This document shows, piece after piece, positions 27,466 through 43,859 of a stretch of DNA of 64,000 nucleotides. Origin of the DNA: Desulfovibrio sp. JY (GTDB lineage: Bacteria > Desulfobacterota > Desulfovibrionia > Desulfovibrionales > Desulfovibrionaceae); assembly GCA_021730285.1 (NCBI GenBank), contig CP082962.1, positions 1,798,001 through 1,862,000 on the forward strand, read 5' to 3'. The position numbers and the translations under genes are program-made. The notes under the pieces are model-generated. The model had not been told where the DNA came from. It saw only the letters and a program-made list of their open reading frames with translations, and searched no databases. Position 1 is the stretch's first letter. Every line of letters starts with the position of its first letter.

Positions 27466-27795
27466 CTACGCGCCCGTTCCCGTGGCCATGGCTCCGCTCG
27501 GGGCGAATTGCGGCAGGACGACGAGCAAGGCGGTTTTTCCACGGCCGGACCAATCGCCAAGGGTCAGGGACGCTTGCAGCCTGTACGCCCCGGGCTGGGC
27601 CAGGTCGCCGTGGCCGGTGGTATAGGCCAGAAAGCGTGTTTCCCCGTCTTCCGTCGTGATGTCCGCCGGCCATCTGGCCGTGGAGCCATCGGGCTTTCGC
27701 ACCATGAGCGCCGCGTTTGTCGCGGCCGTGATGTCCCGGCCGCAATCGAGGACGATTTGCAGGCCCGTATCGCCCTGATAGATCGTATCGGCCAT
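27466..27795 (-). CDS. Small beta-rich virion-cluster protein
   Basis: The 109-residue protein starts after GGAGGGATC and is the last gene of the cluster. It reads as a single beta-sandwich (LQIVLDCGRDI, AALMVRKPDGSTARW, TRFLAYTTGHGDL, GAYRLQASLTLGDWSGRGKTALLVV), similar in style to small phage baseplate or fibre accessory domains (BppU-N-like). No firm family assignment can be made. Confidence 0.6.
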   Translation of the reverse strand: MADTIYQGDTGLQIVLDCGRDITAATNAALMVRKPDGSTARWPADITTEDGETRFLAYTTGHGDLAQPGAYRLQASLTLGDWSGRGKTALLVVLPQFAPSGAMATGTGA

Positions 27796-27804
27796 GATCC
27801 CTCC

Positions 27805-28995
27805 TTATGCCTGCTCCGCTTCGATGGGCGACGCCAGGCGTATGGCGACGGCAACTGGCGATGCCCTTCGAACCGTTGTCGTGATGGGCGACGCCAGGCG
27901 CGCGACCTCGCGTACGGGTGTTTCCCCGGCAAGCGATCGCGCCAGCAGGCCCAGCACGGAAGCCGGCACCCCGGCCGCGCTTGCCGCCGTGGCGGCGGCC
28001 GCCCGGGTGACGATCGGGGTTTGGGCGGCGTCAGGGGCCACGATGGCCACTGACGTCCCCGTGTGTTTGCCCGGGGTTGCGCCGAAAAGGGCCGGCGGCG
28101 GATCGGCGCGGCCACGTCCGACCGGATGGGCCGCCATCGCGGCGGCGACGCAACGCGCCGCCGCGACCAGAACGTAAATCCCCTGGGTGACGGACGCCGC
28201 GACGGGCCGGGACGCAAGCATCGAGAGCGCCTTGGCGCATGTCGCCGAAGCCTCGGTCCATCCGGCGGCGACGCCAGTGGCGAACGACGACGTTTCGGTC
28301 TCCACGCCGGCGTCGACCCTGGCCGCGTCATTGGCCTCCCGGGCTGTGGGGCCCAACGTGGTGGACGGGACGGCCGCCTTGGCCTCGCCTCCCCCGGAAG
28401 CCGCGTTCGCCCCGAAATACCCGCGCGCGGAAGATGCCGCGACAAGCGTCGTCGGGACCTGCCATGCGACATGCAGCTCGGGATATCCCGTGCCGTTGCC
28501 AAAGCAGTAAAACGCGCGCTCGGCGCCGGAAGAGCTTCCGCTATCCAGCACAAAGATCTGCAGGGCGTTTCCCGCCGCCCATCCCGTCCTGTTCACGACC
28601 TCCTGGATGGCGGAAGCGATATCCGGGGAATCGTACGCCTGTGCCGTCCAGTCGCCGGGAGACCAGTTCACGCCGCTGGATTTCGTACGGCTGTTGGCGT
28701 CGGCAATGGATGTCGGCGCGTGTGGGGAGTCGGCCAGCTCGGCGCGAACGCTCCAGGCTATCGTTTTCGAGGTATGGTTGCCGTTGGAGGTGAGCCGCAA
28801 GATCGCGGACGTGATCGTCGCCCCCTGGGGAATGGCGACATTTTGGAACCGTGCCCAGGCGCTTTCGCTGTTGCCGCTGTAGTTGCCCGCGGCGGCTGTC
28901 CGGCCGTTGTAGCCGGATGAGGCAAACCAGCCGCCGTTACCAAACCAATAGCCGGTATCCGTGGATGTCGCGGGATAAAAGACGCTGCTCGCCAT
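27805..28995 (-). CDS. Fibre/adhesin-like protein, jelly-roll domain plus Ala-rich tail
   Basis: Residues 1-185 of the 396-residue protein read like a carbohydrate-binding jelly-roll domain (FYPATSTDTGYWFGNGGW, ITSAILRLTSNGN, DIASAIQEVVNRTGW, YPELHVAWQ), of the DNRLRE/CBM96 style. The remaining 200 residues are Ala-, Val- and Thr-rich and end in three decapeptide-like repeats (RLASPI, RRASPV, RLASPI) encoded by an 18-base exact direct repeat at 27823-27840 and 27883-27900. The low-complexity tail is unusual for a virion protein but contains no stop codon. It may bind a cell-surface glycan. Confidence 0.65.
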   Translation of the reverse strand: MASSVFYPATSTDTGYWFGNGGWFASSGYNGRTAAAGNYSGNSESAWARFQNVAIPQGATITSAILRLTSNGNHTSKTIAWSVRAELADSPHAPTSIADANSRTKSSGVNWSPGDWTAQAYDSPDIASAIQEVVNRTGWAAGNALQIFVLDSGSSSGAERAFYCFGNGTGYPELHVAWQVPTTLVAASSARGYFGANAASGGGEAKAAVPSTTLGPTAREANDAARVDAGVETETSSFATGVAAGWTEASATCAKALSMLASRPVAASVTQGIYVLVAAARCVAAAMAAHPVGRGRADPPPALFGATPGKHTGTSVAIVAPDAAQTPIVTRAAAATAASAAGVPASVLGLLARSLAGETPVREVARLASPITTTVRRASPVAVAIRLASPIEAEQA

Positions 28996-29004
28996 GGAAG
29001 GGCC

Positions 29005-29424
29005 CTAGCTCATCACCACGACGCCGCCGGCGTCGAACTGCACCGTGAACGTGCCGCTCGTGACGCCTTTTTCCTCGCCGAAGTCCAGCAGACACACCAG
29101 CGGACCGGTCAGCTCGCCCACGGTCTTGTCGGCGTAGACGGCGGCGTAACGGGCCGTGACCGTGGCCTCGGTCCAACTCGGGTCGTCGGCGTCGAGCACG
29201 GCCGAGTCGCTGGAAAGGGCCCAGGTCACCCCGGCGAGGGCCGCACCGCCGCTTGTGTAGCCCGTGCCGGACACTTCCTGTCCGGCCACGTCGGCATAGA
29301 CGGCATGGCCGGCGTTTGGCGTATGGGCGCTGGTGAGCAGGGCCAGGCGCAGGGTGTCGGAAGCCAGGTCGAAGACGCCGTTGCCCAGGGACCGCTTGAA
29401 CGCCGGATAGATCAGATTGGCCAT
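29005..29424 (-). CDS. Small virion-associated protein
   Basis: The 139-residue protein has a strong AAGGAGGAACAGTC before the ATG. The start, ANLIYPAFKRSLGNGVFDL, and the following DTLRLALLTSAHTPN match a type of small structural protein common in tailed-phage fibre regions; I do not recall a precise name. The rest is beta-rich and acidic (DDPSWTEATVTARYAAVYAD, LLDFGEEKGVTSGTFTVQF). It lies between the coiled-coil protein and the jelly-roll protein. Confidence 0.65.
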   Translation of the reverse strand: MANLIYPAFKRSLGNGVFDLASDTLRLALLTSAHTPNAGHAVYADVAGQEVSGTGYTSGGAALAGVTWALSSDSAVLDADDPSWTEATVTARYAAVYADKTVGELTGPLVCLLDFGEEKGVTSGTFTVQFDAGGVVVMS

Positions 29425-29440
29425 GACTGTTCCTCCTTGG

Positions 29441-31360
29441 TTAGACCTTGTAGTTGTAATTGTGGTTGTAGCTTTCCCGGAAACCGTTCGACTTGGAGGT
29501 CGATTCGCTGACGGAACGCTGGGTGGACTCGGTGGTGGAGGTGTTCGTGCGCTGGCCGATGGACTCGCTGTAGCCGATCTGGGCCGAGGCATTGACGGAA
29601 CTTAAGGCGCTGGCCGCCATCTGGGCCGAGACCTGGGCCCCGGAACGGATCTTTTCCGCTTCCAGGCGCAGTTCGCCGAGGGAATTTTGCAGCAGCATGT
29701 CCGCCTCCTTGATGGAGACCTCGGCCGCCTTGAGATAGGCGTCGATCTGCCCGGCGTGGTCCTTGGCGCGCAGGTCGGCGTCGGCCCGGCGCGCGGCAAG
29801 GAGCGACTCGTAGCCGCGAAGGGCCAGCTCCTTGTCCTTGAGCAGCGCCTCGGCCCGGGCCCGGGCCTGGGCCAGTTCGGCCTCGAAGCGGGACACGTCG
29901 GCCTTGTAGGCCTCGAGCCTGACCGTATTTGCCTCGGACGAAACGGCCAGCCGCGTATCCGCCACGGTTTTGGCCGCGGCCACGCGTTCGCCGTAGGCCC
30001 GCACCTGTTCGGCGTAGATGCGCGCCTTGGCCTCCTGTCCTGCCATGGCCGCGGCCTGGGCATTGTAGCGGGAGGTGTTGGCGTTGACGCCCGCCACGTA
30101 GGCCTGGATTTGGGCCTCGTAGGCGCTCAGGCGGTCGCGGCCCAGGGCCGACTTGGCCGCCGCGCCTTCCATGCGGGCCTTGTAGAGCCCGACCAGGGCG
30201 GAAACACCGGACAGTTCGGCCAGATACAGGTCGGCGGCGCGCTTTTGGGCCTCGCCGGAAAGCCGCGCGCCTTCCAGGCGCACCTTGTAGGCCTCGAGGT
30301 CGGACAGGGACGCCCGGATGCGGGCCTCGAACACCGCCGCGTCGGCCTGGTAGCGGGCGAGCTGGGCGTTGTGGACGGCCACCTCGGCGTTGAGCGCCTC
30401 GTAGCCGTACTGGGCCAGCGCTTTGGCCCCGTCGAAGGCCCGGGCGGCGCGCTGGTTGAAAAGCTCGATGTTTTGCGCTTCCAGGGCCAGCGCCTGTTCC
30501 ATCACGGCCTTGTCCGCCGCCGTGGCCAGGTCGGCCTGCTTGGCCAGGATATTGAGGTTCTCCTCGGCCATCCGGTCGGCATGGTCGGCGTAAATTTGGC
30601 GCATGAGTTCGGCCATGGGGCCGCTTAGGGCCGAGGCTCCCCGGGCGGCGAAGCTGTCGCCGAGTTCGGTCAGCCGTTTGGCCAGCTCGTCCTCGGCCCG
30701 CCTTTGCGCCCGCTGCCAGAGCCTTTCCTCCAGCTCGGCCCCCTGGCCCGCGCCGCCCGCGACAAGGGCTTTCGTGATCTTGTCCGTGACCGCCGCGCGC
30801 ACCGGCGAATCATAGGTTTCCTCTCCCGGCAGGACGAAGAGGTTTCCCGGCGCGACAAGCTCGGGCATGGGCGGCCGTTCCCCCTCGAAGGTCGGGGTGA
30901 TGGGGCCGGGCAGCTCGGGGATGGTGATGGCGTCGAAAACCGGCGGATCGGGCAGGACGATGGCCGGATCGGCCGGGAACTCGATATCCGGCACGCCCGG
31001 CGCGTCGCCCGGAGCCTCGGGCCAGGTAAGGTCCGGATCGTCCGGCAGGCTGATCTCCGGCGGGGCGACGGTGAAGTCCGGCGTTTCGATGCCGTCGAGG
31101 CTGGTGGTGGACAGTTGCGGGGCGGCGGGCGCGGCGACCTCGCCGAGGCGCACGGCGTCGAGGTCCGGAACATCGGGCAGGCCGGCGTATTCCGGCGCGT
31201 CCGGCATGGCGGGCAGGTCCACGGACGGGTAGGTGAGCCTGGCCACGCCGCCGAGCTGGTTTAAAAACGAGATGGCGGAAAGCCAGGCGTCGTTGGCGTA
31301 GTTCTGGGCCGTGTCGAACTTGTTGCGGACGATGCCGGCCGCGCCGGTGGAATCGCTCAT
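29441..31360 (-). CDS. Long coiled-coil virion protein with Pro/Asp-rich N terminus
   Basis: The 639-residue protein has three parts: a helical start (about 1-40); an extended stretch to about residue 165 with regular Pro-Asp/Pro-Glu dipeptides (DAPEYAGLPDVPDLD, DPDLTWPEAPGDAP); and about 430 residues of Ala/Glu/Arg-rich heptads predicted to form long coiled coils (ALALEAQNIELFNQRAARA). The last 40 residues are Ser/Thr/Asn-rich and end in HNYNYKV. It could be an internal ejection protein, stalk or tape-measure substitute. Its ATG overlaps the previous stop (ATGA), so translation is coupled. Confidence 0.7.
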   Translation of the reverse strand: MSDSTGAAGIVRNKFDTAQNYANDAWLSAISFLNQLGGVARLTYPSVDLPAMPDAPEYAGLPDVPDLDAVRLGEVAAPAAPQLSTTSLDGIETPDFTVAPPEISLPDDPDLTWPEAPGDAPGVPDIEFPADPAIVLPDPPVFDAITIPELPGPITPTFEGERPPMPELVAPGNLFVLPGEETYDSPVRAAVTDKITKALVAGGAGQGAELEERLWQRAQRRAEDELAKRLTELGDSFAARGASALSGPMAELMRQIYADHADRMAEENLNILAKQADLATAADKAVMEQALALEAQNIELFNQRAARAFDGAKALAQYGYEALNAEVAVHNAQLARYQADAAVFEARIRASLSDLEAYKVRLEGARLSGEAQKRAADLYLAELSGVSALVGLYKARMEGAAAKSALGRDRLSAYEAQIQAYVAGVNANTSRYNAQAAAMAGQEAKARIYAEQVRAYGERVAAAKTVADTRLAVSSEANTVRLEAYKADVSRFEAELAQARARAEALLKDKELALRGYESLLAARRADADLRAKDHAGQIDAYLKAAEVSIKEADMLLQNSLGELRLEAEKIRSGAQVSAQMAASALSSVNASAQIGYSESIGQRTNTSTTESTQRSVSESTSKSNGFRESYNHNYNYKV

Positions 31361-32775
31361 GACGCCTCCTTGGGGATGATGATCGGGGTGAGCCCGGCGG
31401 CGGCCGCCTGGCCGAGCTCCTGGTCGTCGGCCACGAACAGGCCGGTGAGCCCTTCGAGCTGGAGCAGGTAGGCCTGGTCGGCGGACAGGGCGTAGTGGAA
31501 GAAGCGGGGCAGGGCCACGTCCATGACGGGGTTCATGCGGTAGGCCCCGATGGCCGCGCCGGTACGGCCGTTATGGAGCGTCCAGGCGTTGACGCCGCTG
31601 GCCTGGTAGACGCAGGCGTCGTCCATGGCGCAAAGGGGCTGGTTTCCGGTCCAGACCGAAGCTTCGGCGTCGTCTTCCCGGGCCACGTAGACGCGCACCG
31701 TGCCGTCCGCGTCGTGGGTCATGACCACGTGGTGCCACAGCCCGTATTCCAGGGGATCGGTCAGGGCCGGGGCGAAGCCGAACTGGCTTTCGAAGTTGGA
31801 CAGCCGCGCCCCGAGCAGCCGGTTGCCGTTGTAGACAAAGAGCCCGGCCGCCTGGAGGCCGAGGATGAAGCCGTGGGGATAGGGGTAGGCGTGGCCCGCC
31901 GCGTCGCGGTATACGTCGCCGGTTAGAGGCGGCGCGTCCGGGCAGGCCGTGGCCGAGCGTTTGGCCCCGGCGAGTTCCTCGGTCTGGCTGGTGAAGTCCG
32001 AGTTCCAGGGCGACCAGGGATAGGTGACGATTTCCGACCAGCCGGGGTGCAGATGCGGCGAACAAAACCCCAACACCGGGGAAATGCTGCCCGGGCAGTC
32101 CCAGGTGAAGTCCGAGCCGTCCCCGCTTTGCAGGAAATAAGCGCGGAAGGGGTTGCGCACGCCCCTGTCGTCGTAGGTGTAGTCGTACTCCAGGGGCTCG
32201 CGTAAGCGCATCAGGCAGCTGACGGAAAACGGCACGTTGTCGGGAATGTGGCCCCGGCCGAAAAGCAGGCCCGAGGCCGCGCCGCCGGGGAGCGCGAACA
32301 CGCCCGGATCGCGCGCGATGCCGGCTTGTGGCAGGCCCTCGGGCGCGGCCAGCCCGGCTTGCGCGGGCGCGAGGACGGTGACGTCGTTGCCGAGCCCCAG
32401 GGACCAGCCGGCCAGGTCGCCGTCGGTGACGGCATTTTGCAGGCTGGTCATCCCCTCGTAGCGGGCCAGGCAGTCCGGGATGGCGAAAAATTCGCCTTCC
32501 CTCTCCGGGCGCGGCCGGAGCGGGGGGCGTTCGCCCGCCCGGGAGATTCTGTGGCGCGGGGCCACGATGTCCACCCGGTCGAGGCTCCCGGTGCGGCCGC
32601 ACACGATGGTTTCGCCGCCGGGGAGGCGCAGGACGCGGGAATAGACCGGCAGGTCGAACACGTTTTCCCGGTCCATGACCGCAAGCTCCCGGAGCGCCTG
32701 GCCACGCAGCCCGGCCAGCGTTGCGGCGTCGCCGTCGTAGCGCAGGCGCGCCGTGGGACGGAAATCGCGGTTCAC
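31357..32775 (-). CDS. Virion protein with laminin-G/concanavalin-like domain
   Basis: A 472-residue protein. Its GTG start overlaps the previous stop (GTGA), although the frame is open far upstream. Beta-rich modules dominate: an N-terminal region with FDLPVYSRVLRLPGGETIVCG, a central section with NPFRAYFLQSGDGSDFTWD, and a LamG-like sandwich around residues 255-420 (FILGLQAAGLFVYNGNRLLG, GLWHHVVMTHDADGTVRVYV). Such domains bind glycans or proteins at the host surface. It is most likely a fibre or adhesion component of the particle. Confidence 0.65.
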   Translation of the reverse strand: MNRDFRPTARLRYDGDAATLAGLRGQALRELAVMDRENVFDLPVYSRVLRLPGGETIVCGRTGSLDRVDIVAPRHRISRAGERPPLRPRPEREGEFFAIPDCLARYEGMTSLQNAVTDGDLAGWSLGLGNDVTVLAPAQAGLAAPEGLPQAGIARDPGVFALPGGAASGLLFGRGHIPDNVPFSVSCLMRLREPLEYDYTYDDRGVRNPFRAYFLQSGDGSDFTWDCPGSISPVLGFCSPHLHPGWSEIVTYPWSPWNSDFTSQTEELAGAKRSATACPDAPPLTGDVYRDAAGHAYPYPHGFILGLQAAGLFVYNGNRLLGARLSNFESQFGFAPALTDPLEYGLWHHVVMTHDADGTVRVYVAREDDAEASVWTGNQPLCAMDDACVYQASGVNAWTLHNGRTGAAIGAYRMNPVMDVALPRFFHYALSADQAYLLQLEGLTGLFVADDQELGQAAAAGLTPIIIPKEAS

Positions 32776-33239
32776 GCCAGCCTCCGGTCCAAGGGCAGGG
32801 CGACGAGGGTGACGGCCCCGAGATCGAACGCGCCCCGGGCGCGGCTTGCGATCTCCGCCTGCCAGTGCTCGCCGCGTCCCCGGCCGAGCCGGGCCACCGT
32901 ACGGCCGGGGAGCCCCCCGCTTCCGGCCGGTCCGGCCACGCCTTCCAGCTTCGAGCCGTCCGAGCTGGCGGCGGAAACGACGGTCTCGCCGTCGATACGC
33001 CCTTCGAGGACAAGGCCGAGCAGCCGCTTGGGGCCGGGCTGGCCGCAGTCGGTTGCCGGCAGAGTCAGGCGCGCGGCAATGGGCGCGCCGTCGTCGGTGT
33101 CGCCGCCGATCCGGCAGAGTCGCTTGCCGTCGGAGAACACGACCGCTTCGCCGTGGCGGCAGGCGGCAACGACCGGCAGGCCGGCCAGGCTCGTTATCGC
33201 GCCGCTGTCCAGTTCCAGGGAAAAACCGATGGTCGTCAT
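32772..33239 (-). CDS. Small beta-rich virion-cluster protein
   Basis: The 155-residue protein has its ATG fused to the preceding stop (TGATG), which fixes the start at 33239. It contains repeated beta strands (TIGFSLELDSGAITSLAGLP, VVFSDGKRLCRIGGDTDD, ETVVSAASSDGSKLEGVAG). No family was recognised. Its position between the transglutaminase-like protein and the LamG-like protein places it in the fibre unit. Confidence 0.65.
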   Translation of the reverse strand: MTTIGFSLELDSGAITSLAGLPVVAACRHGEAVVFSDGKRLCRIGGDTDDGAPIAARLTLPATDCGQPGPKRLLGLVLEGRIDGETVVSAASSDGSKLEGVAGPAGSGGLPGRTVARLGRGRGEHWQAEIASRARGAFDLGAVTLVALPLDRRLA

Positions 33240-34891
33240 CACCACTCCTCGCCGACGGCGGCGTCACAGGGACAGGTAACAAGGGCTGCGTTGCCGGGCC
33301 TGGCCAGGCCGCGCGCGCCAAGGGCCGCCGCCTGGAGCATGGCCTGCACGATGGCGATTTCCCGGCCCTCGGCCGAAGCGTCCGGCACGGGCAGGGACAA
33401 TCCGCCCGGGGCCAGGGAACCGGGCGTGCCGTCGGCGGCGCAGCGCGGCCGGGGCAGCAGGCAAAGAGCCCTGGCGACGCGTCCCGCCTCGCCACGGCCC
33501 AGGTTGCGCCACAGGGGCATGGTGACATGCCCCGCGACCAGCACGCCCGCCTTGGCCGCACCCGTGCTTCGTGTCCGGCCAAGACGCATGGCCGCCGTCG
33601 CGCCGCCGCCCGCCTGGGCGGCAATTTCGGGAACCTGCGGGACAAGACGGGCCCTGCCGCCGCAAGCCGCTTCAAGGATGGCGTCCGGGAAGGTCATGGC
33701 GGCCAGGACCGAACCGGCCGAGCCGGATGCGGTTGGATGCGGGATGCGGCAGGAACCGCCTGCGCCCGCGCGTCCCTGGCAACGTGCCCAGCCGGACGGG
33801 ACGTGAAGGGACGCCTGGCCGCCAAGCGCGCCCGAAGCGTCCAGGACGGCGGCCGGAAGCGCCACCGCGTCGGCCATGGCCCGGGCGAAAAAGACCGCCG
33901 CGTCCTGGCGCACCGTGAAAAAGGAGCCGGCCGTCAAGGCGTAGTCCACCACGGCGTAGTAGGCCGACACGCCAAGCACGGGCAGGCCGGCGACCGCGCC
34001 CTGGGCCGCGCCGCAGGTCCAGTCGAGGGCCACCCAGCGGCCGTCGGACACCCGGCGGTAGCCCACCCAGCTGTGCCCCTCGCGGTCGATGCCCACCCGG
34101 CCGAAGGCCGTGACCAGCCGGTCGGCCGGTGCGCCGGCGGCCAGCAGCAGGGCATGGAGCAGGATGGCCCCGTCCTCGCAGTCGCCGCAGCCCCGGAAGT
34201 AGGTGCCCAGGGCGCAGTTCCAGATATCCGTGTCGTCGTCGCCATCGGCCGCGTAGGTGATGCGCCGGGCCACGGCCGCGAGCATGGCCCCGGCCAGGGC
34301 GTCCCAGCCCACCGACGCATCCGCCAGCGACGCGGCCACGGCGGCCAGTTCGGGATCGTTTCGGCAGAGCAGGGCGACCACGGCGGCGGACCCGGCCTGG
34401 CTGGTCACGGGGCTGTCCAGGCCGCACAGGTAGGCGTGGACGGCGAGGACCGGCAGTGTCGTCGCGCCGGAACCCGTGCGCGCGGAAGCGCCGTCCAGGC
34501 CGTAGGCGGCTATGGCCGGAAGCGCTGTCTCCCCGCAGGCTCCGGCAAGGCCCAGGCCGAAAAGGGCGGTGAGCGTCGCCTGGGCCTTGCGGGCCAGGCT
34601 GGCTTGTCCGGCGATTTCCGGGATCGGCAGGGCACTTTGCCCCCAGGCCGGACGCCAGCCGTCGGTCGTCGCCAGGGCGGCCAGTCCGGTCAGGGACACT
34701 CCTGCGGCCGGCAGCCAGTCGCCCGAGGCGGCGATTTCCGGGATCGGCAGGGGGATGCCGTCGGCGGCGGTGACCACGCCGCAGGTGCCGGTCCCCGCAA
34801 CATCCCACTGAAGGGCGGCCAGTCCCGAGGCGGTGAGGTGTTCTTCCTCCACGGCCTCCATGGTCAGCAGGTACTGTTCAAGAGAGGGCAT
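33239..34891 (-). CDS. Virion-cluster protein with transglutaminase-like domain
   Basis: The 550-residue protein follows GGGGAGG. Residues about 205-295 form a transglutaminase-like fold with a possible triad Cys238 (GCGDCEDGAILLHALL), His273 (REGHSWVGYR) and Asp290 (WVALDWT). Such domains act as cysteine peptidases, amidases or cross-linkers. The flanks are Ala/Gly-rich with recurring short motifs (PIPEIAA near 50, PIPEIAG near 90, PEIAAQA near 435), suggesting internally repeated domains. In a virion it could process a structural protein or attack a cell-wall peptide. Its stop overlaps the next start by one base. Confidence 0.75.
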   Translation of the reverse strand: MPSLEQYLLTMEAVEEEHLTASGLAALQWDVAGTGTCGVVTAADGIPLPIPEIAASGDWLPAAGVSLTGLAALATTDGWRPAWGQSALPIPEIAGQASLARKAQATLTALFGLGLAGACGETALPAIAAYGLDGASARTGSGATTLPVLAVHAYLCGLDSPVTSQAGSAAVVALLCRNDPELAAVAASLADASVGWDALAGAMLAAVARRITYAADGDDDTDIWNCALGTYFRGCGDCEDGAILLHALLLAAGAPADRLVTAFGRVGIDREGHSWVGYRRVSDGRWVALDWTCGAAQGAVAGLPVLGVSAYYAVVDYALTAGSFFTVRQDAAVFFARAMADAVALPAAVLDASGALGGQASLHVPSGWARCQGRAGAGGSCRIPHPTASGSAGSVLAAMTFPDAILEAACGGRARLVPQVPEIAAQAGGGATAAMRLGRTRSTGAAKAGVLVAGHVTMPLWRNLGRGEAGRVARALCLLPRPRCAADGTPGSLAPGGLSLPVPDASAEGREIAIVQAMLQAAALGARGLARPGNAALVTCPCDAAVGEEW

Positions 34892-35090
34892 GGCGCCTCC
34901 CCGGCAGTTCGAGCCGCACACGCACTCCGGCAAAGGGGTTGTGCCGCGCGCTTTGCTCCGGCGCGCAGCCGGCGGAGGACGATTCCGCGTCGCGCAGGTC
35001 CTGGAAGGGCCGGGGAAGCAGGGGCGGCACGGGCCTGCTTGTCGCGCCGGCATCCGGTGCTTCCGGTATCTCCGGTAGAGGGGTCAGCAT
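34878..35090 (-). CDS. Short proline-rich protein, doubtful to probable
   Basis: A 70-residue frame fills the space between two cluster genes and overlaps the next start by 14 bases. GAAGGTGA lies five bases before the ATG at 35090; an upstream GTG at 35099 is an alternative. The product is Pro/Ala/Arg-rich (LTPLPEIPEAPDAG, PVPPLLPRPFQDLR) with no recognised domain. It fits the packing of this gene set, but composition alone could also produce such a frame. Confidence 0.45.
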   Translation of the reverse strand: MLTPLPEIPEAPDAGATSRPVPPLLPRPFQDLRDAESSSAGCAPEQSARHNPFAGVRVRLELPGRRHALS

Positions 35091-35126
35091 GGGCGTCACC
35101 TTCGGGAAAAAAGATTGTCGGCGGAC

Positions 35127-35804: not shown

Positions 35805-36368
35805 CTACAGTTGGAGGGCGACGTCGCCGCCGAGTTGCAAGGTGCCGGTCACCACGATGCCGCCTGCCGGCATGTCGCCGCGATACCAGACCACGCTGGT
35901 CCGGCCCGTGCCGTCGTCGTCCTGGAGATAGACGGCGTCCGGCGCGGCAAGAGGTTCCGACAGGTCGGTCGCCGCCGGGATCAGCGTGTCCCAGACGTCC
36001 ACGGTTTCGAAGGAGCGGTACACGCCCGTGGCCTCGATCCGGATGCCCTTGACCAGGGCCAGGGCGTAGCGGGTGGCGTCCGCGTCCGGCAGGTAGAACC
36101 GGCCGTAGCCGTAATGGGCCAGCTTGAGCGAGAAATCGTCGTCGTCGCCGGTGTCGGAATAGATGGTTTCCAGCGTCGGCAGGGGCTCGCCGGGGGTGAG
36201 GCTCCCGGAGAGCACGCCGCTCCGAGGCGTCCGGGACAGGGTGACCCGGCTGCCGTAGGAATAGGGCGTGGCCCGGGCCGTGTCGAAGGCCTGGCCGCAG
36301 GTCACGCGGATGCGGGCGGGGAAGCCTTCGAAGCGGCAGTGCATGGAGAGCGGATAGATGTCGGACAT
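35805..36368 (-). CDS. Virion-cluster protein of unknown function
   Basis: The 187-residue protein is the first gene of the fibre unit and is preceded by GGGGAAGGG. It reads as mixed beta structure with an acidic loop (TIYSDTGDDDDFSLKLAHYG) and strands FYLPDADATRYALALVKGIRIEAT and GGIVVTGTLQLGGDVALQL. No family was recognised. The upstream 524 bases are non-coding and may hold its promoter. Confidence 0.65.
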   Translation of the reverse strand: MSDIYPLSMHCRFEGFPARIRVTCGQAFDTARATPYSYGSRVTLSRTPRSGVLSGSLTPGEPLPTLETIYSDTGDDDDFSLKLAHYGYGRFYLPDADATRYALALVKGIRIEATGVYRSFETVDVWDTLIPAATDLSEPLAAPDAVYLQDDDGTGRTSVVWYRGDMPAGGIVVTGTLQLGGDVALQL

Positions 36369-36435: not shown

Positions 36436-36519
36436 GGCCGGGGGGCGGGGTGTGGCGGCCGCGTGCGGCGCATATTTGAAGAATACGCCTTCGCGCCCGC
36501 TCCACCCCGCCCCCCGGCC
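36436..36519. repeat. Large inverted repeat with 50-base loop
   Basis: GGCCGGGGGGCGGGGTG at 36436-36452 pairs perfectly with CACCCCGCCCCCCGGCC at 36503-36519. It lies upstream of the fibre-unit start codon and could form a stable RNA stem or cruciform. Confidence 0.6.
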
Positions 36520-36875: not shown

Positions 36876-36892
36876 TTCCTCCCTCCACCTCC

Positions 36893-37351
36893 CTACGAGG
36901 CCGGCATGGTGACGACGAAGCTGTCGATGGTGGTGGTGGCGCCTGCGGTGATGGCGGTGCTCGACATGTTGAGCTGGGCTCCGGAGGTGGAGACCGAGCC
37001 GTCGAAGCGGGCGTGGCTGGTATCCGATCCGGTGGTCATGTCGTTGGCGTAGAAGCGGAACCAGCCGGCGGTGCCGGTGGACGCGGCCGCGCCGGACCAG
37101 ACTTCGGAGGAGGCCTTGGCGCAGGAGCCGCCGGAGGGGGCGGCGAAGTTGAGGCCGTTTGTGGCCGTGCCGGCGGTGAAGGTTCCGGAGGAGACGGTGA
37201 TCTCCAGGAGAGGGGAAACGCTTTCGCCGTCGTCGGCGCTGGAGGGCTGCACGCCCGGGAAGATGCGGATCACGCCGTTTTGCATGATGGTCTTGAAACC
37301 TTCGGTGCCGAGCAGCTTGTTGCGAAGACCGGTGGAGAGACGCAGGGCCAT
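36893..37351 (-). CDS. Virion structural protein, beta-rich
   Basis: The 152-residue protein follows AAGGAGCGCCACCT. It starts MALRLSTGLRNKLLG then TIMQNGVIRIFPGVQP, a beginning found in small tail or head-associated phage proteins. The rest is Ser/Thr/Gly/Ala-rich beta structure (ITVSSGTFTAGTATNG, TTTIDSFVVTMPAS). It is the last gene of the head unit and is followed by a strong hairpin. Confidence 0.65.
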   Translation of the reverse strand: MALRLSTGLRNKLLGTEGFKTIMQNGVIRIFPGVQPSSADDGESVSPLLEITVSSGTFTAGTATNGLNFAAPSGGSCAKASSEVWSGAAASTGTAGWFRFYANDMTTGSDTSHARFDGSVSTSGAQLNMSSTAITAGATTTIDSFVVTMPAS

Positions 37352-37375
37352 AGGTGGCGCTCCTTTGTGTTGTTG

Positions 37376-38287
37376 CTAGGCGTTGATGAAGAGGCGGTAG
37401 CGGCGGTTTGTGGCCACGGCGCAGGCCTTGCCCGGCGGGATGGCGGCCGCGGCCAGGCGCGTGACCCGGCCGTCGGCGTCGCCCCGGTAGACGCCGTCCG
37501 TCCCGGCCCAAAGGGCCGCGTCGCCGGAGAGCGTCTGCCCGGCCACGGTTTCGTTGTGGCCGGATTCCAGGGCGACGTCGCTGCCGGGCAGGGGCGGCGT
37601 GGGGCAGACCCGCTTGAAGAACATGGCCTTTTTCGGGTCGTGCCCGGCGGCGAAAGCCACGCCGGCGTCGTCGCCGATGTAGAGCCCGCCGCCGACGGCG
37701 CGCAGGAACCGCACATGGCCGGTGGCCGGGGGCAGGAATCCGGCCGCGCCGTCCACCCAGTCGAAGAGTCCGGCTCCTTCGGTAAAGCGCACCAGATTGC
37801 CGGAGGCGATCCAGATGCGGCCGGCAAAGTGGGCCAGATGCTCGCCGGGCGGCGGCGGGACGAAGCGGCCGGAGCGGTCCGGGCCGGGATAGGTCCCCCC
37901 GCCCCAGGGCAGGGCTGTGCCGTCGCGGAGGCGGCCGGTTTCGAAGCCGTTGGTGAAGTAGACCGTGTCGCCGACGACGAGGAAGACGACGCGGCCTTCG
38001 GGGGTGAGGCCGCCGCGCAAAAGGCGTGGCTCGCCCTGGCCCGGGATCAGCCAGATGCCGCCGTCGCGCGCGCCGTAGAGGTTCGCGCCGTCGGAGAAAA
38101 GCGTCGCGAACCCCGCTTCCCCGATGGCCGCGTAGCCTGGACGGCGGCGGATGCGGCCGGCGGCGACCTCGACGTTGACGGCCCGGGCCAGTTCGAAGCG
38201 GCCGGTGTCCGGTTCGCAGACCAGGGACAAGGGCGAGCCCGACTGGCCAAGGCCCAGGCAACGGGTGAGCCGCATGTCCTTGCTCAC
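37376..38287 (-). CDS. Predicted propeller-like virion protein
   Basis: The 303-residue protein has a GTG start overlapping the previous stop (GTGA). It contains repeated short strands with Gly-Asp turns (ATLFSDGANLYGARDGGIWL, VVFLVVGDTVYFTNGFETG, GGGLYIGDDAGVAFAAG, AALWAGTDGVYRGDADGRV) that suggest a beta-propeller. Short-tailed phages often encode a propeller-like stabilisation or tail-tube protein at this map position, just after the adaptor, so that role is plausible. Confidence 0.6.
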   Translation of the reverse strand: MSKDMRLTRCLGLGQSGSPLSLVCEPDTGRFELARAVNVEVAAGRIRRRPGYAAIGEAGFATLFSDGANLYGARDGGIWLIPGQGEPRLLRGGLTPEGRVVFLVVGDTVYFTNGFETGRLRDGTALPWGGGTYPGPDRSGRFVPPPPGEHLAHFAGRIWIASGNLVRFTEGAGLFDWVDGAAGFLPPATGHVRFLRAVGGGLYIGDDAGVAFAAGHDPKKAMFFKRVCPTPPLPGSDVALESGHNETVAGQTLSGDAALWAGTDGVYRGDADGRVTRLAAAAIPPGKACAVATNRRYRLFINA

Positions 38288-39018
38288 GGCCAATCCTCCC
38301 CGAAGACCGGCAGACCGCCGTCCCAGGGGCCGGGAATATCGGCCGGCTCGTCCTGGATGACGGCCGGGCCGGTCAGGGCGACCAGTTCCGCCAGGGCCGC
38401 CTCGAAGCGCCGGGCATAGGCCGTGGCCTGGGGCTTTTTGCCGTCGGCCCCTTCCTCCAGGCGTTCGAAGATCTCCCGGCAGGCGAAGCTGACCAGAAGC
38501 GGTCCGGCCAGATGCGGCGGGAGACAATCCGGCTTGTCGGACAGGGCGACCAGTGGATCGGGCAGGCGGTAGTAGCCGACGGTCAGCTCCGCGTCGGCGG
38601 TCGGCGCGGGCCGGGCGTAGAGTCTTCCGGCTCCGGCGGCCACGCAGCGGATGTGCCCGTGCGCGCCGAAGCGGATCTCCCGCCGAAGCGAAGCCAGGTC
38701 CGGCGCCACCCGGACCCGGCCACGCCCGGGGAGGAGGAAGGCATAAACGGGACCGTGCTGCATATCCGCCGGCAGCGCGGCATGCCCCTGTCCCGCCGGG
38801 AAGGGGAGTTGCGCCTCGGCGGCGAGCCCCGGCAGACGGGCGGCTGCGGCGGCGGCCATAAGCCCGCGCCCGAGTGCCCGCAGGATTTCGCTCTCGCCGA
38901 CCGCCGGATCACCGACGATGCTGGCCACCTCGGCCATAAGCCCGGCCACGGTGTCGGGGCAGGCGTTTTTTTGTGCTTCGGCCGCGGCCCGGGGCAGGGA
39001 GAGTTGCGCTTGCGCCAT
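38284..39018 (-). CDS. Head-tail adaptor-like protein
   Basis: The 244-residue, mostly helical protein has GGAGG five bases before ATG 39018. Features common to phage adaptors include an N-terminal helical bundle (AGLMAEVASIVGDPAVGESEILRALGRGL), a beta section with AELTVGYYRLPDPLVALSD, and a closing helix YARRFEAALAELVALTG. Its position after the capsid and decoration genes supports a portal-ring adaptor. The exact family is not certain. Confidence 0.6.
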   Translation of the reverse strand: MAQAQLSLPRAAAEAQKNACPDTVAGLMAEVASIVGDPAVGESEILRALGRGLMAAAAAARLPGLAAEAQLPFPAGQGHAALPADMQHGPVYAFLLPGRGRVRVAPDLASLRREIRFGAHGHIRCVAAGAGRLYARPAPTADAELTVGYYRLPDPLVALSDKPDCLPPHLAGPLLVSFACREIFERLEEGADGKKPQATAYARRFEAALAELVALTGPAVIQDEPADIPGPWDGGLPVFGEDWP

Positions 39019-39052
39019 CACATCCTCCAGAGTCGTCTCTTGCGCGCGGGGG

Positions 39053-39772
39053 CTAGTCCAGGGTCAGAAAGCAGGGCTGGCACAGCCCGGCGGTGAAGGC
39101 CGCGCCAAAGGCCACGCCGGCCACGGGCTGGTCGGTGTCCAGGGTGGCGTTCATGGCGGTGAGGCTGCCGGCCGTGGCCCCGGGCACCAGCATGCTGCCC
39201 ACTTCGGCCGTGCCGCCGGCCAGGCAGCAGCCCACGCCGCCGGTCTGGGCGAAGTAGTAGTGCCCGGCCGGAACGTCGCAGGGCGTGACCCCCGCCGGCA
39301 GGTTCTCCTCGGTGGCCGAGGCCGTGACCCCGGCCCAGGGCGAAGGCACGAGGGACACCTTGGATGCGGCGGTGAGCGCGCCGCGCACGGGCTCGGCCAG
39401 GGTGAGGATCACCGTGCCCGAGGCGGGGCAGGCGGTGTTGGAGAGGATGCGGTACTGCCGGCCCTGGCCGGAGGCGTCGGCTACCTGGAGGAAGCCGTCC
39501 TCGTAGGCGTTTTCAGCCACGGCCGCCGTCCCCACGGTCAGGGAGACGACCCGGTCGCCGACGGCGGCTTCGGTTGCGGCAAGGTTTTGGTGGGCGGCCA
39601 CGGCGGCCGGGGCCATGCCGAGGCTGCCGGCGGCCAGGGCCGACGCGCCGGCCTTGGCGTAGCGGAATTTGCGGCCGTCGGCGGTGATGCGCAGCGCGCC
39701 GACGGTCTCGCGCTTGGCCGGCGAGGTCTCGGCCACGTCCTGGGTGAAGGAGAGCTTCATGGGTTGGGCCAT
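39053..39772 (-). CDS. Probable capsid decoration protein
   Basis: The 239-residue protein lies directly after the major capsid gene, where decoration or head-fibre proteins usually sit. It starts after AGGAGG with the ATG at 39772. Residues 1-60 (MKLSFTQDVAETSPAKRETVGALRI; DGRKFRYAKAGASALAAGS) are typical of such proteins; the remainder is a compact beta domain (DRVVSLTVGTAAVAENAY, GTVILTLAEPVRGALTAAS). It has five cysteines in its second half, unusual for a capsid protein. Confidence 0.65.
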   Translation of the reverse strand: MAQPMKLSFTQDVAETSPAKRETVGALRITADGRKFRYAKAGASALAAGSLGMAPAAVAAHQNLAATEAAVGDRVVSLTVGTAAVAENAYEDGFLQVADASGQGRQYRILSNTACPASGTVILTLAEPVRGALTAASKVSLVPSPWAGVTASATEENLPAGVTPCDVPAGHYYFAQTGGVGCCLAGGTAEVGSMLVPGATAGSLTAMNATLDTDQPVAGVAFGAAFTAGLCQPCFLTLD

Positions 39773-39804
39773 CATTTCCTCCTGAAGAATTGGGGTGCGG
39801 GCGC

Positions 39805-40776
39805 CTAGGACAGGTTGGAGTGGCAGGCGTGGGCCTTGCGGTTGGAACAGATCAGGTTGCCGTGCCAGAGGATCTTCATGGAGCGCCCGGCCGGGCCGGC
39901 CAGGTCGACCCAGGGCTGGCGGGCGAAAAAGCCGTTCTGGTGGATGGCGAAGCCGAGGTAGTTGGTGTTGACGGCGAAACAGTGTCCGGCCGGACAGTAG
40001 TCGTCGGCGGCCAGGACCATGCCCTCGTAGACGAGGTGGGCGAAGCCGGCGCTGGCCACGCCGTCGTCGGTGACGAAGCGCTGCTGCACCTGGAGGATGC
40101 GGGAAACCTTGTTGTAGAGCGACTCGGTGGTCACGGCCACGTTGGGCTTGCCGTCGCGGCCGTCGGAGACCTTGGCCGCGCTGCGCAGTTCCTGGAGCGC
40201 TTCGAGGCTCATGGCCTCGGCCGCGTCGTTGGTCACGCCCTTCCACGGGGTGGTGCCGTCGGCGGCCACGAGGTCGGCTTCGGCGATGCCGCCGTAGGCC
40301 TTGTCCGCGTCGGTGCTGGTCAGCGCCCGCAGGCCCGTCAGCGTCGGAGCCTCGTCGCCGGCGGCGGAATAGAGCGTCGAGGCCAGCCAACTGGAGCAGG
40401 TGCGCTGGGCGGTCTCGATTTTCTGGGTCACGAACTGCACGGCCGCGTAGTCGCCGCTGGCCGCCACCTCGTCGGTCAGATAGACCGTGGCGTTGCCGTA
40501 GGCGTGCTTCCAGTGGAAGGCGGCGGCGTTGACCGACACCCGGTCGTCGCTGGAAAGGGTGTCGGAGCGGGTGAAAAATCCGCCCTCGGCGTCGGAGTAG
40601 TTGAGCGGCACGCGGATTTTTTCGCCCCCGGCCGGCCGCTCGAAGAGCCCCGCCTGCCTATTCATGAGCAGGTCGAGGAGGAAGGAATTGCGGAAGTAGA
40701 TGTCCACGGCCCGACCGCCGGCGGCCGCGAAATAGTCGCTGGTGATGGCTTCGATTTCGGTCATGGAAAGCGACAT
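39805..40776 (-). CDS. Major capsid protein
   Basis: The 323-residue protein fits an HK97-fold coat protein as found in short-tailed phages: N-terminal helix TEIEAITSDYFAAAGGRAVD, E-loop region GGEKIRVPLNYSDAEGGFF, spine helix and strands AVTTESLYNKVSRILQVQQ, and a C-terminal beta segment ending ILWHGNLICSNRKAHACHSNL. GGGAGG precedes the ATG. The gene lies between a scaffold-like gene and a decoration gene, the classical order. No N-terminal protease prosequence is evident, so maturation by cleavage is not expected. Confidence 0.8.
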   Translation of the reverse strand: MSLSMTEIEAITSDYFAAAGGRAVDIYFRNSFLLDLLMNRQAGLFERPAGGEKIRVPLNYSDAEGGFFTRSDTLSSDDRVSVNAAAFHWKHAYGNATVYLTDEVAASGDYAAVQFVTQKIETAQRTCSSWLASTLYSAAGDEAPTLTGLRALTSTDADKAYGGIAEADLVAADGTTPWKGVTNDAAEAMSLEALQELRSAAKVSDGRDGKPNVAVTTESLYNKVSRILQVQQRFVTDDGVASAGFAHLVYEGMVLAADDYCPAGHCFAVNTNYLGFAIHQNGFFARQPWVDLAGPAGRSMKILWHGNLICSNRKAHACHSNLS

Positions 40777-40797
40777 GAGGCGTCCTCCCTGGTTGGG

Positions 40798-41346
40798 TTA
40801 GATGTCGCCGGACTGGCGACGGGCTAAAAGGCGGGCGGCCAGCACGGCGTTGATGCCGCCGAACTTTTCGGGCGCGGCCAGATCGGGGTCGGTCCCTTCG
40901 CCGCGACCGGCTCCGGACGGGGTGCGGTTTAGGGTTCGGGCCAGGCGCTTGGTCCGGATGCGCTCCAGGGCCTTGGCCTCGGCCTGGGCGGTCGCTTCCT
41001 GGCGGGTCTTTTCCAGGTCGGCTTCGTGGGCCTGGCCTTCGGTTTCGAGCCTGGCGGCGAAGTAGGCGCCCACGTCGTCCAGCAGCGGATTGGCGCGTTT
41101 CCGGGCCTCCAACGCGCCGGAGGCGGCCAGTTCCCGGTAATCCGGATGCTCGGCCACGAAGCGGGCCATGAGCGTGTCGCGCTCGTCCTGGCGGCGCTTG
41201 TCCTCCAGGGCGTCGAGGCGCGAGGCGAGCAGCGCTTCGAGGCGGTTTTCCAGGGCCGAGAGAAACGACTGCGGGTCGGCGGCAGACGCGTCGGCGGTTG
41301 GCGCGACCGGGGGCGTCTGCGGCAAGGTGCGGGGTTCGGCGTCCAT
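40798..41346 (-). CDS. Scaffolding protein
   Basis: The 182-residue protein is highly charged and almost entirely helical in the middle (FLSALENRLEALLASRLDALEDKRR, EADLEKTRQEATAQAEAKALER), with a Pro/Ala-rich start and a basic C-terminal region (RTKRLARTLNRTPSG). That composition and the position just before the major capsid gene are typical of phage scaffolds. AAGGGGAGAT precedes the ATG. Confidence 0.75.
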   Translation of the reverse strand: MDAEPRTLPQTPPVAPTADASAADPQSFLSALENRLEALLASRLDALEDKRRQDERDTLMARFVAEHPDYRELAASGALEARKRANPLLDDVGAYFAARLETEGQAHEADLEKTRQEATAQAEAKALERIRTKRLARTLNRTPSGAGRGEGTDPDLAAPEKFGGINAVLAARLLARRQSGDI

Positions 41347-41417
41347 ATCTCCCCTTGCGGGTTAAAGGGTTGTCGGGAGCCGGCCGAAGCCGGGCCGTCG
41401 GCGTATGGAAGCGGCCG

Positions 41418-41780
41418 CTAGAGGCCGTTTCTGGCGATGAAGCGTTCCCTGACTTCCCGGCGCACCACGTCGTTTCGGGCCGCAGGATGACGGAATTCGC
41501 CTTCCTCCATGGGGCGGATCTTTTCGCCGCGCAGAAAAAGCCGGTAGTTGGCGCGGCTGGGGTCGGCCAGAAAGGCACGCACATGGGGGCTTGGCGAGTC
41601 CTTGTCCACGACGTCGGTCACCGAATCGAGCCAGTCGGCGTCGGCGCGGTAGGCCCGGCCCACGGACACGAGCCGTGTCGCCGCGCCGCCGCAGACGCAC
41701 ACCCCCTCACCCGCATCCATGGGGGCCATGGCTTCAAAGACCCTGCCGCACACCCGGCAGCGGAAGTCATACAGCGGCAT
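41418..41780 (-). CDS. FmdB-type zinc-ribbon protein
   Basis: The 120-residue protein has an N-terminal zinc ribbon, MPLYDFRCRVCGRVFE followed by GVCVCGGAA, matching the FmdB regulatory-protein pattern. The second half is helical and charged (HVRAFLADPSRANYRLFLRG, HPAARNDVVRREVRERF) and may contact other virion or packaging proteins. It starts inside the end of the portal gene (14-base overlap) after GGAGG, which supports co-translation. Confidence 0.75.
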   Translation of the reverse strand: MPLYDFRCRVCGRVFEAMAPMDAGEGVCVCGGAATRLVSVGRAYRADADWLDSVTDVVDKDSPSPHVRAFLADPSRANYRLFLRGEKIRPMEEGEFRHPAARNDVVRREVRERFIARNGL

Positions 41781-43569
41781 GTCCACCCTCCTTCCCGGCC
41801 TTTCCGGTAAAGAGGGCCCGGGGGGAATTAGTCCCCCCGGTGGTGGGGGCCAGGGGTGGCAAATCCTCCCCTGGGTCTTCCCTCCGCTCCATCCTCTCCA
41901 ACACGCCGGCGCGGCTGGACCAGTCGAGCTTTTCGAGCAGGTCGCGGCGGTCGATGGCCCCCATCTGGTAGAGGGCCAGGGCTTCCTCGCGCTGTTGGAC
42001 GCGGGAGACGGGCATGGTGGAGCCGGAGACGACGGTCAGGCGGGCCGGGATGCGGCATTTGGCCCCGTGGATGGGGGCGGCCATGGCGCGACCGTTTTCG
42101 GTGAAGCTGATCCAGCGTTCCTCGGTGTACCAATTCTGCATGTGGCTTAAAAACATGCGGCCGCGTTCGCGGATCAGCCGGGAGTAGTTGCGGATCTTGC
42201 CGCGCAGGAGCGTGGCCGCCTGTTCGATCAGGGCGGCGATGGCCTTGTAGGCGATGACGGGATGGTCGGGGGCCGTGGCGCGCTCGATCTCGCCGATGCC
42301 GGAAATCTGGCTGAACAGTTCCCGGTAGATGCCGAGCACCGACTCGATGTCCTTGGTGTTGTTGGTGAATTCCAGGTAGCGGATGCCCTGGGCGGCGGCC
42401 ATGGAGGCCGGGTTGACGATGCCCTGGCGGTTGGTGAAGGCGGCGTTGGCTACGCCCGAGTCGCGGGGGTTGATGATTTTGGGCCGGGCGCAGCGGTCCT
42501 TGTGGTAGGTGAGCTGGGACAGGCACTTGTTGACTTCGAGCTGGAGCTCGGCGAGCTGCTCGAAATCCGATGCGCCCCAGAGGCTGGCCGGATCGGTCAG
42601 CGAATTGGCCAGGGTGAAGGGAAAGCGGTCGTACAGGTAGCTGGCCATGGCCTCGGCTTCCGGCAGATCCGGGTTGACCGAAGGGTTGCCCTGGTCGGAC
42701 AGCACCACCGCGCCGGCCCCGGCCACGGTGACGCAGCGAATAAACCCGGGATAGCGCGGCGCGTCGCCGTCCATGGTGTAGTCGCGCACCCAGCATTCGC
42801 ACACCAGGGTCGCGTCGTCGCTGGGGCCGTCGCCGCCGCTTGCGCCGACGATGGCCCGCACCACCTCGCCGAAGCGGCCGAAAAGCCCCTGGCGCGAGCC
42901 GTCGCCCGTGATCGCCTCGCGGCGGCCGTCGCCGAGCTGGGCCAGAAGGGCTGCGTCGCTGGTCAGCTTGTCCGCCGCCTTGGGCCAGCGGCGTCTGGCT
43001 TCGCGCAGGCTCATGGGGGTGAAGTGGAGCACGGCCTCGGCGTCCTGGATGTCCAGGCAGGAGGTGGGGTAGACGCCGAAGGCGAAGGGGTCGACCACCA
43101 CGGTGCGGACCTCGCCGAGGCCGTATTCCAGGTCCGGGTCGAACACGACCTTTTCCACGGCCACGCCGTAGGTCTCGCCGTTTATGACCGAACGCTCGAA
43201 GATGGCCTGCTGTTCCTGCTCGGTCCACCACCAGGCGGCGGCGCGCTCGAGGGCCCGAAAAAGCTCCTCGTCGCCGGCCGGCCCCACCCGGTTGACGTTG
43301 AAGGTGGGGTTGTTGTCGGTGAGCATGTTGACGGTGCGCTGGCGGTGCAGGTGGAGCAGGTTGGCGCTGACCAGCGGCACCCCGGGATGGACGCCGCCCC
43401 GCCAGGCCCGGTTGCGGCCCAGCCGGTAGTTGCTGGTCCATTTGTCGGCCAGGCCCAGCCGGACCTTGTCCGTGACCACGGCGTGGAGCAGCTCGAAGAC
43501 GCGCCGGCCGACCAGCTCCGGCCGATCGACCGGGGGCAGCAGCTCGTGGGCATGCGTGGGTTCGGTCAT
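41767..43569 (-). CDS. Portal protein
   Basis: A 600-residue protein with portal features: an N-terminal helical region (ADKWTSNYRLGRNRAWRG, LVSANLLHLHRQRTVNML), a central wing (VVDPFAFGVYPTSCLDIQDAE, SLREARRRWPKAADKL), a stem helix region (FEQLAELQLEVNKCLSQLTYH) and clip/crown segments (FSQISGIGEIERATAPDH, LIEQAATLLRGKIRNYSRLI). The length suits portals of short-tailed phages. Its ATG is fused to the preceding stop (TAATG). In intact phages the terminase genes normally sit just before it; here only a 96-residue zinc protein does. Confidence 0.82.
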   Translation of the reverse strand: MTEPTHAHELLPPVDRPELVGRRVFELLHAVVTDKVRLGLADKWTSNYRLGRNRAWRGGVHPGVPLVSANLLHLHRQRTVNMLTDNNPTFNVNRVGPAGDEELFRALERAAAWWWTEQEQQAIFERSVINGETYGVAVEKVVFDPDLEYGLGEVRTVVVDPFAFGVYPTSCLDIQDAEAVLHFTPMSLREARRRWPKAADKLTSDAALLAQLGDGRREAITGDGSRQGLFGRFGEVVRAIVGASGGDGPSDDATLVCECWVRDYTMDGDAPRYPGFIRCVTVAGAGAVVLSDQGNPSVNPDLPEAEAMASYLYDRFPFTLANSLTDPASLWGASDFEQLAELQLEVNKCLSQLTYHKDRCARPKIINPRDSGVANAAFTNRQGIVNPASMAAAQGIRYLEFTNNTKDIESVLGIYRELFSQISGIGEIERATAPDHPVIAYKAIAALIEQAATLLRGKIRNYSRLIRERGRMFLSHMQNWYTEERWISFTENGRAMAAPIHGAKCRIPARLTVVSGSTMPVSRVQQREEALALYQMGAIDRRDLLEKLDWSSRAGVLERMERREDPGEDLPPLAPTTGGTNSPRALFTGKAGKEGGHAAV

Positions 43570-43859
43570 TATTTGCCTCCCTTGCGGGCGCGTTTCCTGG
43601 CTTCCCGGCGGATGGCGGGCTGCCCGATGGCCAGGGTTCCCTGGTCGGTTTCGAGGCTGTCGCGACCGTCCGGGGCGTAGCCCTGGGGATGGTGGCGGCA
43701 GTAGGGACAGCGGGCGTCGTCAAAGGACGCCTCGGGATCAAAGGGCGGTGGGAAGCCGGGCTCCAGGGGGCCGAACACGGCGCCGGTCAGCGGCGGGGTG
43801 AGGTCGGTGGGGTCAAAGGCGGCGATGGCGGCGTGGCAGAGTCGGCAGCGCAGGATCAT
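43569..43859 (-). CDS. Small zinc-finger protein, first gene of the virion cluster
   Basis: The 96-residue protein follows GGGAGG. It has two Cys pairs, LRCRLCHAAI and ARCPYCRHHP, spaced about 45 residues apart, which could bind one zinc ion, and a basic tail (IRREARKRARKGGK). It could be a DNA-binding remnant of packaging or regulatory function. An earlier in-frame start exists but has no ribosome site. Confidence 0.65.
   Translation of the reverse strand: MILRCRLCHAAIAAFDPTDLTPPLTGAVFGPLEPGFPPPFDPEASFDDARCPYCRHHPQGYAPDGRDSLETDQGTLAIGQPAIRREARKRARKGGK

Follow-up and report, generated by a model that had tools for sequence, protein, structure and literature searches.

A candidate gene transfer agent divided between two chromosomal loci in Solidesulfovibrio

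What use does a bacterium have for a run of phage head and tail genes with no terminase beside it? The question is raised by a leftward block at positions 27466–43859 of a 64,000-nucleotide window of Desulfovibrio sp. JY (the window, meaning the whole stretch of DNA analyzed, covers bases 1798001–1862000 of its 4.69-Mb single-contig genome, G000), a genome treated here with those of Solidesulfovibrio. An original prediction, made from the DNA letters, had described nineteen leftward genes between these ends and had suggested either a domesticated particle or a capsid with a non-DNA cargo, and we found the block present with the ends it gave. We interpret this block, with a probability of about 0.8, as the operon for the head and tail of a domesticated phage particle, short-tailed (P22/SU10-type) and DNA-packaging, in other words a gene transfer agent (GTA)-type element spread over at least two loci. 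Recent literature lists five genetically distinct GTA types (PMC11409702), and GTAs beyond the well-studied group have been found by chance (PMC6854486). We found no literature pairing Solidesulfovibrio with gene transfer agents.

A conserved head-tail block and its separate terminase operon

Four proteins, encoded like the rest of the block on the minus strand, indicate what kind of particle this is. The portal protein (41767..43569, 600 aa) belongs to phrog_156 (E 9e-24) and matches the Pfam families P22_portal and SU10_portal; the major coat protein (39805..40776, 323 aa) matches phrog_9953 (E 9e-27) and has an HK97 fold (model with a predicted local distance difference test score, pLDDT, of 82.6; PDB capsid fold matches at probability 1.00), with a PDB sequence search returning chance matches only; and the head-tail adaptor g12 (38284..39021, 245 aa) matches SU10_adaptor (PF24175, E 3e-15). 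All three names given in the original prediction are thereby confirmed. The fourth, g11 (37376..38299, 307 aa), is a short-tail nozzle-like beta-propeller matching phrog_8040 (‘head closure Hc3’), and its model, of moderate quality (pLDDT 73.7), finds the podovirus tail complexes of Pa223 and Pan3 as its best two PDB fold matches and GP4 at rank 6. Together, the nozzle fold, the P22/SU10-like portal and the SU10-like adaptor point to a short-tailed particle.

The block is shared across the genus. Its portal is present in the window’s own genome and in all 13 other Solidesulfovibrio genomes examined (14/14) as well as in 1 of 45 other relatives, and searching 288 family genomes with a portal profile gave 18 matches, namely the 14 Solidesulfovibrio genomes, three of the related genus g44 (3/3 genomes) and a single further genome, G029, where it is part of an ordinary prophage. 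Gene order from g1 to g18, the variable g2 aside, is kept in every congener with a long enough contig, the block being seen in part in G002, G009, G006 and G013 because their contigs end within it. Genes to the right of the block are host-like; the one at 44131, divergently oriented, flanks the portal end in 14 of 14 genus genomes, and a response regulator-tetratricopeptide repeat (TPR)-kinase cluster occupies the other flank wherever the contig reaches.

The original prediction had reported terminase, integrase and lysis genes as absent and had called for a terminase search elsewhere in the genome. For the block itself this stands, in that none of its 18 proteins matched a terminase, integrase, lysis or replication family (no search was aimed at integrases), but the genome does hold a terminase in a second operon. 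Three Terminase_6N matches were found. The match at 719966 is part of a resident prophage (prophage 2, below), and the one at 2311974 was rejected as the block’s terminase, as by gene content it appears to lie within a Mu-like prophage (C1:2302000-2321999, L026). The third, at 1.41 Mb, belongs to a TerS-TerL (small and large terminase subunit) pair that stands alone between host genes, 413 kb from the block. Its operon (G000:C1:1408351-1412573, outside the window) runs from a zinc-ribbon gene through two genes for small membrane proteins, the first of them a possible holin by a weak holin-family match (phrog_4712, E 0.003), to TerS, TerL and one more small membrane protein. In congeners the order of these genes is unchanged, with a ~40-aa protein between the membrane-type pair and TerS, and so are the flanking kinase, lipoprotein, Spy-like and TPR genes. 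In two congeners, G004 and G008, a 2.6-3.2 kb insertion sits between TerS and TerL (L068, L069). The stand-alone TerL occurs in 14 of 14 genus genomes, in G029 and in 3 of 3 g44 genomes; a comparable TerL was absent from the other 44 of the 59 relatives searched.

Because the ATPase and nuclease motif residues of TerL are invariant in a 17-sequence alignment, the non-DNA cargo offered in the original prediction is disfavoured. That alternative, an encapsulin-like use of the capsid, draws on an HK97 fold that includes encapsulins and on a block without terminase; yet portal, adaptor and nozzle have been retained, unlike in an encapsulin-type compartment, and the same genomes carry the conserved terminase pair under an upstream motif in common with the block. 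We regard it as very improbable.

The two operons are linked, the terminase not having been lost from the system but lying in a second operon under the block’s upstream motif. Alignments of the regions upstream of both revealed a common element at fixed spacing, a 37-bp regulatory motif at 43915..43951 of the window (minus strand) whose partner site lies outside it at G000:C1:1408286-1408322. Scanning ten Solidesulfovibrio genomes with up to 3 mismatches recovered one site per locus in every genome, plus three extra 3-mismatch matches, one each in G004, G008 and G009, those of G004 and G008 preceding an endolysin-like gene, while five outgroup genomes gave none and a reversed-pattern control gave 0. 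With a matrix built only from sites of the structural operon, the terminase sites reached 17-36 bits, the background averaging -62 (standard deviation 14). The g44 genomes differ in how the operons are arranged: in G087 they are adjacent, collinear and head to tail (in the order kinase, lipoprotein, zinc ribbon to TerL, Spy, TPR, an insertion sequence (IS) element, then g18 and portal through to g1), and in G086 they lie ~70-90 kb apart in opposite orientation, such that one inversion would interconvert the two arrangements. An IS transposase gene (L172:989-2200) is located at the G087 operon junction, the breakpoint expected for that inversion.

Selection, descent and phage relatives

Comparing synteny and the ratio of nonsynonymous to synonymous substitution rates (dN/dS) across relatives, as the original prediction had proposed, we found order conserved and dN/dS low. 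Pairwise values over block genes ranged from 0.02 to 0.53, like those of flanking host genes, with coat at 0.02-0.09, portal at 0.11-0.36 and TerL at 0.06-0.23, and with values up to ~0.5 for g6, g7 and g18 (the fast-evolving g7 at 0.34-0.50). These values bear on the possibility that the block is a decaying prophage whose head genes were kept by chance. Decay would fit the lack of any match to an integrase, replication or repressor family at the two loci, but the block’s position and gene order are unchanged across the genus, its frames are open genus-wide apart from two fragmentary draft metagenome-assembled genomes (MAGs), its dN/dS is well below 1, and the terminase and the upstream motif are conserved along with it. 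The conserved block is not a prophage remnant, a reading already contradicted and given almost no credence here, and domestication rather than decay is strongly supported.

Descent agrees with host phylogeny. Trees of the structural and terminase concatenates have 6 of 7 splits in common, and each has 5 of 7 in common with rpoB (shuffled labels gave a mean of 0.4 and a maximum of 4); tree distances correlate at r 0.92-0.93, and the disagreements are short internal branches, weakly supported in one or both of the trees compared. The candidate-GTA loci form one clade in the coat and TerL trees (support 98 and 100), with prophage 2 and the IMG/VR relatives L087 and L088 as sisters, and each tree resolves two genus clades. 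The simplest reading of these trees would be a single domestication before the split of the two genera, followed by vertical descent. Genus-wide synteny, purifying selection, host-congruent trees and a single phage-derived clade thus bear out the preference for a domesticated particle over decay that the original prediction had expressed.

RcGTA proteins are cheaper to make and poorer in carbon than their viral homologues. The candidate-GTA coat and TerL are likewise cheaper and contain fewer carbons than phage homologues, including those of prophage 2 (cost per residue 22.33 versus 23.20 for coat and 24.06 versus 24.85 for TerL), and amino-acid composition is reported to separate GTA proteins from viral homologues (PMC9662315).

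The nearest relatives of the candidate-GTA loci in both the coat and the TerL tree are prophage 2, L087 and L088. Prophage 2 (~C1:705000-724999, L023) has TerS-TerL near its portal, a GH24 lysozyme and different tail genes, and its proteins are 74% (coat), 59% (portal) and 86% (g10) identical to those of the block, with the stand-alone TerL 70% identical to its TerL. Portal, coat, g13 and TerL homologous to those of the candidate GTA are found in prophage 2, L087, L088 and the G029 prophage, g10-g12 in all of these except the G029 prophage, and a homologous lysozyme is shared by prophage 2 and L087. In the phage relatives terminase and portal lie on one element, whereas the candidate GTA has them at two loci; their portal is sporadic, whereas the candidate-GTA portal is genus-wide; and their tail genes differ from those of the block. 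Nor is the block a complete (active) prophage, its terminase lying far off between host genes. The original prediction would have called the block a remnant had a sister strain carried a complete prophage with terminase and integrase next to it or had most relatives shown frameshifts, and we found the relatives’ frames open and the sole terminase-linked relatives to be distinct prophages (prophage 2 and that of G029) at ~50-75% identity.

Prophage 2, or another resident phage, could also be a helper, supplying terminase and lysis to an element whose particle is made by or for it, and prophage 2, in the same genome, does carry a lysozyme along with head and terminase homologues. However, the block has a genus-wide terminase of its own and none of the congeners had a portal like that of prophage 2, leaving such dependence only a slim chance.

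Remaining genes of the block

The count of nineteen genes holds for 18 that are well supported, the nineteenth being a weakly conserved 73-aa open reading frame at 34878..35099 (minus strand), a possible small gene that is 88% identical in G011 and weak in other congeners. The structural operon opens with g18 (43569..43859, 96 aa), a Cys-rich protein present in all congeners, and between portal and coat lie a zinc-ribbon protein (41418..41786, 122 aa; Zn_ribbon_8, PF09723, E 6e-10) and a scaffold-like protein (40798..41346, 182 aa). Beside the coat, g13 (39053..39781, 242 aa) is a conserved head protein with 77-98% identity genus-wide. Neither the scaffold-like protein nor g13 had a family match; both genes are placed as the scaffold and decoration names in the original prediction would have them, with position the sole basis for either label. 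Further along are g10 (36893..37351, 152 aa), a virion structural protein of phrog_3758 (E 8e-22) with 82-97% identity in congeners, and g9 (35805..36368, 187 aa), an unknown virion-module protein found genus-wide. A dispersed palindromic element, GAAGGCGTATTCTTCAAATATGCGCC, lies between these two genes at 36467-36492, and another copy lies upstream of terS; the palindrome was considered as a regulatory element common to terS and g9 and was dropped because it has 50 copies genome-wide.

The adhesin-like modules of the original prediction correspond to weak similarities in two proteins, both below Pfam cut-offs: g8 (35127..35795, 222 aa) resembles F5/8-type-C (discoidin-like) domains (E 0.007) and also matches phrog_17517 (tail, E 0.02), and the genus-wide g5 (31357..32763, 468 aa) resembles LamG/ConA-like domains (E 0.002). 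Near them are g7 (33239..34891, 550 aa), which carries a cysteine peptidase-like Transglut_core domain (PF01841, E 5e-7, above cut-off), the unknown g6 (32772..33245, 157 aa), g4 (29441..31360, 639 aa), a conserved helical virion/tail protein (phrog_10969, E 3.5e-82) with 65-94% identity in congeners and 56% in g44, and g3 (29005..29427, 140 aa), of virion protein family phrog_644 (E 1.5e-30). The only viral g4 homologue found (31% identity) is on a 40.5-kb viral contig, L184 (IMG/VR 3300048578_000440). Several neighbours overlap (g4/g5, g6/g7, zinc ribbon/portal and portal/g18), in keeping with the frequent translational coupling also predicted.

At the far end, g2 (27805..28995, 396 aa) varies more than any other gene here, with C-terminal fragments alone aligning in congeners (G011 excepted) and no family match in phrog and Pfam searches, and we take it as a candidate receptor-binding protein. 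The last gene, g1 (27466..27795, 109 aa), matches phrog_17896 (E 0.003), a family of unknown function, is kept in each congener whose contig extends that far, and is probably a tail or receptor-binding accessory. The g1/g2 end as a whole (27466-28995) varies between species (L028, L030, L032, L035, L038). In the other congeners checked, g1 and the response regulator are separated by an additional 1.6-2.3 kb of unassigned sequence that G000 and G011 lack.

High variability of g2 between species and fast evolution of g7 are as expected of receptor-binding or killing parts, and so they could suit a PBSX-like killer particle, one that packages host DNA without delivering it and kills competing strains. 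Such a particle would equally be terminase-dependent, host-maintained and devoid of replication genes. Nothing in the sequence is specific to killing or immunity, however, and the short-tail nozzle fits DNA delivery as well as killing; we consider a killer particle quite unlikely.

Proposed mechanism and comparison with known agents

For a domesticated DNA-packaging particle we propose that a host-controlled activator would turn on both operons through their common 37-bp element, and that coat, scaffold and portal would, as homology suggests, build a procapsid. TerS-TerL from the second operon, whose motor residues are conserved, would then dock on the portal and fill the head with DNA; with neither locus matching any replication or integration family, host DNA would be the most likely template, and the two-locus arrangement would bar packaging of the GTA genome as one piece. 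Adaptor g12 and nozzle g11 would seal the head and make up the short tail, the variable g1/g2 end would bind recipients, and, in the weakest step of the scheme, cells would lyse, perhaps via the holin-like gene and a separate endolysin-like protein, with DNA injected into relatives. A possible but doubtful extension is that TerS still recognizes DNA, in which case defined parts of the host chromosome would be packaged (directed transfer) under one switch for two separated operons.

The endolysin-like protein is encoded by a stand-alone gene (C1:974168-974731 in the window’s own genome, L292; L286 and L288) present in 12 of 14 genus genomes, 3 of 3 in g44 and 1 other of the 288, with neighbours conserved in several congeners and an interruption in G004. 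A phage lysozyme (PF00959) was considered as the lysis gene and rejected, occurring in 3 of 13 genus genomes searched and lying here within prophage 2.

Several points weigh against a GTA-type particle. The particle, its packaged DNA and their transfer are all deduced, the system being known here from genes alone. TerS (181 aa) retains its N-terminal region, which aligns with phage TerS, and a full PF03592 match (residues 10-149), and so does not appear to be of the type reported for GTAs, whose small terminases are short and without a DNA-binding domain (PMC6854486, PMC11841831). Two MAGs, both draft assemblies, have a broken gene (TerL in G006, portal in G002), and the higher GC content of the block (0.695 versus 0.642 in prophage 2) could account partly for the composition bias. 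The phage relatives lie on contigs of ~40-61 kb versus ~21 kb for both loci, so the head may not be small. As for lysis, no PF00959 phage lysozyme is conserved in the genus across the 13 genomes searched, and the endolysin candidate has no family match and is preceded by the 37-bp motif in G004 and G008 only, which makes this third locus a lead only. Taken as a whole, the original prediction’s interpretation is partly supported.

If true, this interpretation would establish a sixth GTA type and the second in Desulfovibrionaceae, a new GTA lineage whose source phage type is unlike that of the best-studied (siphovirus-like) agent and whose hosts are culturable sulfate reducers; a domesticated phage particle packaging bacterial DNA could move genes between cells. 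The two operons have a common switch sequence and the separate terminase is cleanly deletable, and a TerS with a retained N-terminal region makes random versus directed packaging directly testable. More generally, when a capsid block has no terminase beside it, the enzyme can be traced by co-inheritance and by a promoter motif common to both loci, which offers a way to find overlooked GTAs.

GTAs have been defined by six features (PMC9662315), three of which we found in the sequence. The proteins derive from tailed phages (portal, coat, adaptor, nozzle, TerS and TerL by family or fold, with phage relatives), the element is fully endogenized at several loci (two operons between conserved host genes, genus-wide), and its inheritance has been mostly vertical, codiversifying with the host (by splits and distances relative to rpoB and by the two genus clades). 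With three of six seen in sequence, that the element works like a GTA is a stronger claim than that it is one.

Among known systems, RcGTA and RcGTA-like agents (Rhodogtaviriformidae) are alike in having phage-derived structural genes, several chromosomal loci and vertical inheritance, in lacking replication and integration genes at the loci and in a cheaper amino-acid composition than viral homologues. They differ in that TerS-TerL is a separate operon here, and in that RcGTA TerS is without the N-terminal region kept here; compared by description, RcGTA particles are siphovirus-like (PMC11409702), whereas the portal, adaptor and nozzle here are P22/SU10-type. The original prediction had pointed to a particle of Desulfovibrio, and Dd1 of Desulfovibrio desulfuricans ATCC 27774 is indeed a GTA from the same bacterial family. 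A link to it is not borne out: the portal homologue was not found in 270 of the 288 family genomes, that is, outside three genera, ATCC 27774 not being confirmed among the 288, and the predicted Dd1 TerS has 125 aa (Ddes_0720, PMC6854486) versus 181 aa with PF03592 here. Likened by description and living in different hosts, BaGTA of Bartonella is genus-wide, conserved in position and codiversifying (PMC6899734), as here, and VSH-1 of Brachyspira has, going by the title of the cited work, a divided genome, the candidate GTA likewise lying over two loci.

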